In this document: one piece after another, positions 18,460 to 19,246 of the stretch
Layout of the letters: each line of letters begins with the position of its first letter
Numbering within the stretch: the stretch's first letter is position 1
Origin: Halocatena salina
Lineage (GTDB): Archaea > Halobacteriota > Halobacteria > Halobacteriales > Haloarculaceae
Length of the DNA stretch: 64,000 nucleotides
Assembly (NCBI RefSeq): GCF_023115355.1
Contig: NZ_CP096019.1
Span: 1,364,001 to 1,428,000 of the forward strand
Reading direction: 5' to 3'
The notes under the pieces: generated by a model
What the model was told of the DNA's origin: nothing
Seen by the model: the letters and a program-made list of their open reading frames with translations, nothing else
The model's database searches: none
Translations under genes and position numbers: made by a program

Positions 18460-18762
18460 TCAACTACTGATCGCAGATACGTCAGCCGCGATGATGCCAA
18501 AGCCATCACAGAGCGCCGTTTCGACGGCTCTCGGCTCCGTCGCTGCTGTGCGGACCTGCACCTCGACGACGAGATCGACACGGATATCCGTTGCCGTGGG
18601 ACGACAGCCCACTACGTCGATCTCCTCGACGGTAACGACGGGGGTAGCGCTTGTGAGGACATCCATTGCGCCAGCAGTGAGATCGCCCGCTGCTCCCCGA
18701 GACACCCAGAGGGTGATGTCGGTGCTCGCCGTGACAACGAGAACCGGATCCTCCATTGTCAT
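18460..18762 (-). CDS. Hypothetical haloarchaeal protein, 100 aa
   Basis: A 100-residue acidic protein with beta-strand-rich sequence: DPVLVVTASTDITLWVSRG, TATDIRVDLVVEVQVRT, and a C-terminal ALCDGFGIIAADV. There is no signal peptide or membrane segment. The pattern of valine-rich strands with a terminal GFG helix resembles small haloarchaeal proteins, but I cannot name the family. Start ATG 18762 (MTMEDP) is preferred; the frame extends 31 codons upstream, but those codons are the translation of the tRNA-like element that ends 2 bases before this ATG. The opposite-strand frame (18271-18819) is less protein-like. Confidence 0.6.
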   Translation of the reverse strand: MTMEDPVLVVTASTDITLWVSRGAAGDLTAGAMDVLTSATPVVTVEEIDVVGCRPTATDIRVDLVVEVQVRTAATEPRAVETALCDGFGIIAADVSAISS

Positions 18763-18764
18763 AC

Positions 18765-18833
18765 ATTCCCGCCGAGGCTCGAACTCGGTCCTCGGCCGTC
18801 CGGCCGCGTGCGTACCTGATACACCACGGGAAT
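18765..18833 (-). ncRNA. tRNA-like element without a normal anticodon loop
   Basis: On the minus strand a 69-nt cloverleaf can be drawn. The acceptor stem pairs ATTCCCG with CGGGAAT (7 bp). The D-arm GTGT-ATCAGGT-ACGC has 4 bp with one G-U and a GG in the loop. The T-arm CCGAG-TTCGAGC-CTCGG has 5 bp and a consensus T-loop. Where the anticodon arm should be, CGGCC-GGAC-GGCCG has a 5-bp stem with only a four-base loop, so no codon can be read in the usual way. It ends two bases before the start codon of the next gene (18762). It may be a tRNA pseudogene, a tRNA-like leader, or a processing signal. Confidence 0.6.
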
Positions 18834-18897
18834 TTCGGTCGAATGGTCGATTCACTCAGAGCGAAGCGTGAAGTTCCCACGACGCGTCACCGATCAC

Positions 18898-18914
18898 AGA
18901 ACAGTCCGCCCCCG
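18898..18914 (+). repeat. 17-bp direct repeat, copy 1
   Basis: The 17-mer AGAACAGTCCGCCCCCG occurs here and again at 19070-19086. No gene is recognisable in the stretch from 18834 to 19246 that holds both copies. Confidence 0.6.
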
Positions 18915-19064
18915 ATACCGTCACCGAGACGATCATCTCTAGGGTGAGATGAACGAGGAACGAACCCGAGGTGACACTCACTTCCTGGCTGGGGAAGCGG
19001 TGGCACAACGGGCGTGTGGACAGGGAAGCGATGAACGATGCGCGTCCACACTGCCAAGAGATGT

Positions 19065-19095
19065 ATTCGAGAACAGTCCGCCCCCGTTCTCGAAT
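19065..19095. repeat. Hairpin with 10-bp arms containing direct-repeat copy 2
   Basis: ATTCGAGAAC (19065-19074) and GTTCTCGAAT (19086-19095) form a perfect 10-bp inverted repeat around an 11-base spacer. The spacer and inner arm are the second copy of the 17-mer at 18898. It lies about 150 bases beyond the stop of the minus-strand deacetylase gene, so it may be its 3' structure, although no U-tract follows. Confidence 0.6.
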
Positions 19096-19246
19096 CCCTC
19101 AGTGGCAACAGCGAACAGTCGGTGTGTGGAAAGCGTGCTCATCATTCGTATCACCAGCCCACGATGTGTCTCTTCGTATAATCGCAATTATATTAGCTTT
19201 TCCGATGGTGTGGTGTATAATACCACACTCGTGTGGGATCGTTCAG

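Follow-up and report, generated by a model that had tools for sequence, protein, structure and literature searches.

The 64,000-nucleotide (nt) stretch of the Halocatena salina genome analysed here, hereafter called the window (contig NZ_CP096019.1, positions 1,364,001 to 1,428,000), contains on its minus strand a small open reading frame (ORF), hereafter called ORF1, whose start codon is preceded by an element resembling a transfer RNA (tRNA) with no normal anticodon. The question raised by this locus is what such a structure does directly in front of a protein-coding sequence. The element is interpreted as a t-element, i.e. a processing signal in the 5' leader of the ORF1 messenger RNA (mRNA), at which predicted cleavage by RNase Z would free a near-leaderless message; on the comparison of homologous loci this interpretation is given a probability of about 0.74. 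Like a t-element, it consists of a tRNA-like acceptor/T-arm part with a conserved T-loop, is non-decoding and lies directly at the start of an ORF.

The element has a length of 69 nt (18765-18833, minus strand) and is followed by GT and then by the ATG at 18762. Its sequence, read directly from the minus strand, is ATTCCCG TG GTGT ATCAGGTAC GCAC G CGGCC GGAC GGCCG AGGA CCGAG TTCGAGC CTCGG CGGGAAT. The initial annotation, made from the sequence alone, had described a tRNA-like structure with a 4-base loop which ends 2 nt before the ATG and which could not hold a normal anticodon, and both statements agree with the sequence and with the programmes used here. ARAGORN reported positions 18764-18833 of the minus strand as 'tRNA-???' with a 2-base anticodon, and the element scored below the threshold of the Rfam tRNA model, while 43 tRNAs were found elsewhere in the genome. 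With relaxed settings the best sub-threshold Rfam match was mascRNA (RF01684; 18.8 bits, E 0.27, compared to a gathering score of 42.5). A functional tRNA gene was rejected on the ARAGORN result, on the tRNA covariance-model score under the gathering threshold and on the lack of a 7-nt anticodon loop. An open frame runs upstream from the ATG through the element, but a coding origin was also rejected, since 1-nt insertions or deletions inside the element separate the Halocatena species and the element is thus non-coding.

The position of the element is conserved with the gene. In 87 of 91 non-redundant ORF1 loci a T-arm and acceptor stem stop 2-5 nt short of the ATG, the spacer being CT or GT in 46 of the 87 and 2-5 nt long in every element-bearing locus. 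The T-loop in these 87 loci is TTCGA, or ATCGA in one group; the T-stem lacks no more than one of its 5 pairs in any of the 87, and 84 of them have 6 or all 7 acceptor pairs. The four exceptions are three Halorussus-type copies and one locus (L035) in which the contig starts at the acceptor, with GGGGGCCT still visible ahead of the ATG. When the rule had been fixed beforehand and was applied to an additional set of loci (20 newly fetched regions and three profile hits in regions fetched earlier, two of these hits being from new genomes), the element was present in 23 of 23, which gives 110 of 114 family loci overall. As the start codon had partly been picked with the element in mind, the background was estimated from 5728 ATG starts in 864 kb of the host genome, only four of which, the window locus included, have such an element 2-5 nt upstream.

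The stems also bear marks of selection. Among 74 distinct sequences, the 12 pairs of the acceptor and T-stem are standard pairs in 93 % of the cells, compared to 68 % after shuffling and at most 51 % with a slid partner. The covariation score of the twelve pairs was 0.626, compared to 0.150 for shuffled alignments (0 of 500) and a maximum of 0.180 for slid ones, and both sides had changed in 11 of the 12 pairs. Since the 5' strand of the acceptor was placed by best pairing, the values for that helix are biased; the T-stem was placed from the loop motif alone and its covariation persists, one pair being C-G in 28 sequences, G-C in 23 and A-U in 21. The initial annotation had taken compensatory stem changes as a sign of function, and adjacency to the orthologous ORF as a sign of a leader role; the former are seen here, and the latter extends over the whole order (87 of 91 and 23 of 23 loci).

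The centre of the element, corresponding to the D and anticodon part of a tRNA, is 14-71 nt long, contains either one hairpin or two, and has no anticodon kept across the loci. The D-arm-like hairpin of the window copy is retained in the four Halocatena-type sequences and reduced in Actinarchaeum, and the loop of the central hairpin differs in both length and sequence among relatives. A conserved acceptor and T-arm around a variable centre indicate that it is the acceptor/T-arm domain, not the decoding part, that selection retains, as fits a processing signal rather than a decoder.

The region upstream of the element is consistent with a long leader. In 75 of 87 loci the nearest promoter-like AT-rich box lies 114-675 nt before the element (median 352), and none of the 87 loci has such a box within the first 60 nt, compared to 15 of 36 ORFs of at least 250 amino acids in the window. 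The start codon of ORF1 is ATG in 87 of 87 loci, with a Shine-Dalgarno-like word in place in only one of them. A long leader which ends in a tRNA-like fold at an ATG without a Shine-Dalgarno sequence is what would be expected if the leader were removed and the message translated as leaderless. In two haloarchaea approximately 70 % of the transcripts are leaderless (PMC8303175). A small upstream ORF, ORF0 (MMSTLSTHRLFAVATEG..., 18978-19145, minus strand), which follows a GGTGAT-like site, lies on the downstream side of the probable TATA box and has a start and N-terminus similar in relatives, was considered as coding and rejected, the differences by codon phase (5/9/5) giving no support.

In the proposed mechanism, the transcript would start approximately 330 nt upstream of the element, as judged from the conserved TATA box, and the acceptor stem and T-arm would fold into the tRNA portion which RNase Z and RNase P recognise. 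Cleavage by RNase Z just 3' of the acceptor stem would give an mRNA starting 1-4 nt before the AUG, to be translated as a near-leaderless message, and RNase P would probably cut at the 5' side of the element. RNase P/Z cutting of the message, which the initial annotation had put forward, appears to be the best-supported mechanism.

Cleavage of this type is known from the same class of organisms. In Haloferax, tRNase Z cuts a t-element located ahead of 5S rRNA, and a crRNA flanked by two t-elements was freed in vivo by RNase P and tRNase Z (PMC4326828; PMC4946936). The 5S t-element of Haloferax volcanii is, like the ORF1 element, an acceptor and T-arm mimic placed directly ahead of an RNA, 1-2 nt from the RNA released; the spacing is 2 nt both at the host 5S gene and at ORF1 in the window. 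It frees an rRNA, however, whereas the ORF1 element would free an mRNA and set a 5' end next to a start codon. When the element descriptor was applied to both strands of 864 kb of the host genome, it recovered tRNA genes, the ORF1 element, the 5S t-element and three matches with no evident meaning; the 5S t-element lies outside the window (C1:1491976-1492018), 2 nt ahead of a 5S rRNA confirmed by Rfam. In the open-access papers covered, i.e. those outside subscription journals, the natural archaeal t-element described is the one ahead of 5S rRNA, and no archaeal mRNA was reported whose start codon has a conserved t-element beside it.

Some loci have an element behind the gene as well. A second acceptor/T-arm element was found at most 190 nt past the ORF1 stop codon in 27 of 90 loci, compared to 2 of 90 for a control region lying farther downstream; at the window locus there is no second element after the stop. 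Examples are the loci L016-L021, L024, L026, L029, L036, L045, L051, L074 and L085, and the second element is often followed by a small basic ORF (e.g. MHRRYLAAVIGR... and MYQALALRAALIEQRYHRRR, each in a different genus). In such loci RNase P acting at the second element would set the 3' end of the mRNA. The layout is shared with the engineered crRNA of Haloferax between two t-elements, although that construct is synthetic and the ORF1 case natural, framing an ORF.

In animal mitochondria, tRNAs between cistrons punctuate the transcript and are excised, releasing mRNAs which often have no leaders. As a tentative extension, for which the odds are somewhat below even, the ORF1 loci may represent tRNA punctuation in a cellular instead of an organellar setting, in which mimics before ORF1, and in many lineages behind it as well, would carve out a leaderless mRNA, expression depending on the tRNA-processing capacity of the cell. 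The mitochondrial punctuation marks are true decoding tRNAs, whereas those of ORF1 are non-decoding mimics belonging to one gene family of a cellular genome. In plant mitochondria, t-elements in the leaders and trailers of mRNAs are described as setting mRNA ends via RNase Z and RNase P (PMC8003010, citing Forner 2007). They are likewise tRNA-like structures tied to mRNA ends, as predicted for ORF1, but they are organellar and belong to long untranslated regions and, as described in that source, have no constant distance of 2-5 nt from the AUG of one gene family. The mascRNA of vertebrates and the similar structure of MEN beta RNA are also non-decoding tRNA-like processing signals, with weak Rfam similarity to the ORF1 element; unlike it, they define the 3' terminus of a long noncoding RNA.

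Several observations weigh against a t-element in front of ORF1. The folding z-score of the element is modest (-1.76), and the window copy, folded by itself, has a minimum free energy structure other than the cloverleaf; since folding energy is weak on its own, the case was built on comparison. Acceptor pair 1-72 is mismatched in 29 of 74 copies, and the three Halorussus copies have ORF1 without the element, which is thus not essential to the gene. Of the many tRNA-like elements predicted in Haloferax in the 2012 work of Holzle, which PMC7714728 cites, few were reportedly tested in vitro, and these reportedly were not cleaved.

The main rival explanation, which is considered unlikely, is that the element is not cut but is a regulatory tRNA mimic, bound by a tRNA-binding enzyme or by the ORF1 protein itself, controlling translation or stability. 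In its favour, the structure directly abutting the start codon is conserved, and the fold predicted for ORF1 is ferredoxin-like, a type frequent in RNA-binding proteins. The copies closest to a tRNA are similar to tRNA-Glu/Asp/Gln, and the resemblance to tRNA-Glu/Asp persists in the copies L064, L078 and L083, whereas L082, L085 and L094 are tRNA-Lys-like. The parts on which tRNA identity depends, the anticodon arm and the central region with its wide length range, are, however, the least conserved, and the tight 2-5-nt spacer and the second element past the stop suit processing better. Nor does a single source tRNA emerge, the best tRNA match differing from copy to copy and the source seeming to vary between lineages; the different likenesses suggest the possibility that the element was recruited more than once.

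It is still less probable that the element is an independent tRNA-like noncoding RNA gene, forming the main product of an operon with ORF1. Stable tRNA-like RNAs such as mascRNA exist, and some loci have further tRNA-like elements upstream, but no conserved loop or central sequence points to a specific RNA function, and what stays constant is the way in which the element adjoins the ATG. A tRNA pseudogene or the remnant of an attachment site at which an element had integrated, both named as alternatives in the initial annotation, would agree with the 4-base anticodon loop and the score below the Rfam threshold, but is regarded as refuted, because neither a pseudogene nor a remnant predicts compensatory stem changes or conserved adjacency, whereas the covariation is strong and the position is kept throughout the order; in addition, no integrase is adjacent and a close-family query found no relatives in viral contigs. 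A fold arising by chance in coding or intergenic DNA rich in G+C, to which the modest z-score might point, is the least probable of all and likewise refuted by the frequency of the element (110 of 114 family loci, 4 of 5728 background starts) and by the 1-nt indels, which rule out a coding explanation.

Judged from its codon positions, ORF1 is a real gene under purifying selection: 26 of 37 differences from the Halocatena pleomorpha homologue are at third codon positions, with 23 synonymous and 14 replacement changes. Of 146 genomes of the family, 87 contain a homologue, and a single query found one in 121 of 293 genomes of the order; a profile search detected homologues in 205 of the 341 haloarchaeal genomes sampled (61 of 81 genera). 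The genus of the window corresponds to the Halocatena/Actinarchaeum group. No family match above the cut-off was obtained from Pfam, NCBIfam or the PDB sequences. The AlphaFold model based on 10 sequences, which superseded a poor single-sequence model, has a pLDDT of 90 and the element order b-a-b-b-a-b of a ferredoxin-like fold; Foldseek gave no significant PDB match with it, and only a weak EF-1beta-like similarity. No ORF1 relatives were found in viral contigs searched with the close-family query, and a viral origin was rejected on this result. Homologues without any tRNA-like leader are located on Halorussus megaplasmids (e.g. NZ_CP100401.1:98292-98597), the only such lineage seen. Two genomes have two ORF1 copies each (G228, loci L082 and L083; G288, loci L101 and L119), each copy having a tRNA-like but differently built leader.

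Further tRNA-like elements are located 300-420 nt upstream of ORF1 in the loci L031, L032, L071, L079 and L083. In some of these a box similar to GAG(A/G)(C/T)ATC(G/A)CT lies between the further upstream element and the main one; 15 of the 87 loci carry such a box upstream of the element, and none of the 87 does on the opposite strand. In L071 (genome G372) and L083 (genome G228), ORF1 lies among several clustered genes for tRNAs and tRNA-like RNAs and repeated hairpins carrying GTTACTTC/GTTCCTTC motifs, over approximately 2.2 kb around and after it, and a gene for a TROVE (Ro60-like) protein follows. This cluster could be an archaeal locus of the Ro/Y-RNA type. A general, Y-RNA-like link of the element to Ro60/TROVE was rejected: TROVE was found in 26 of 293 genomes, adjoins ORF1 in these two and is absent from the host genome.

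Table. Coordinates in the window of the predicted t-element, ORF1 and the upstream region
Feature	Position	Strand	Basis or remark
Probable TATA box, TAATATA	19189..19195	-	Invariant in six relatives (Halocatena group); 356 nt upstream of the 5' end of the element
Presumed long transcribed leader, promoter to element	18834..19165	-	No coding support
Putative t-element, whole	18765..18833	-	Sequence, ARAGORN, homologous position in 87/91 loci, covariation
Acceptor stem, 5' strand, ATTCCCG	18827..18833	-	Sequence, homologous loci, covariation; 7/7 pairs with CGGGAAT
D-arm-like hairpin, GTGT-ATCAGGTAC-GCAC	18808..18824	-	Sequence reading
Central hairpin at anticodon position, CGGCC-GGAC-GGCCG	18793..18806	-	Sequence reading; 4-base loop, no anticodon loop
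T-arm, CCGAG-TTCGAGC-CTCGG	18772..18788	-	Sequence, homologous loci, covariation; 5/5 pairs
Acceptor stem, 3' strand, CGGGAAT	18765..18771	-	Sequence, homologous loci, covariation
Spacer of 2 nt, GT (discriminator position and one base)	18763..18764	-	Predicted RNase Z cut inside, which would leave ~UAUG
ORF1, 100 amino acids (18463-18762) and stop (18460-18462)	18460..18762	-	Unnamed family; predicted b-a-b-b-a-b (ferredoxin-like) fold

If the element in front of ORF1 is a t-element, haloarchaea would make leaderless mRNAs by tRNA-type cleavage, in addition to starting transcription at the AUG. The ORF1 element would then provide a testable link between the tRNA-processing enzymes and the 5' ends of mRNAs, and the unnamed, widely conserved family of ORF1 proteins may sense or serve this link.
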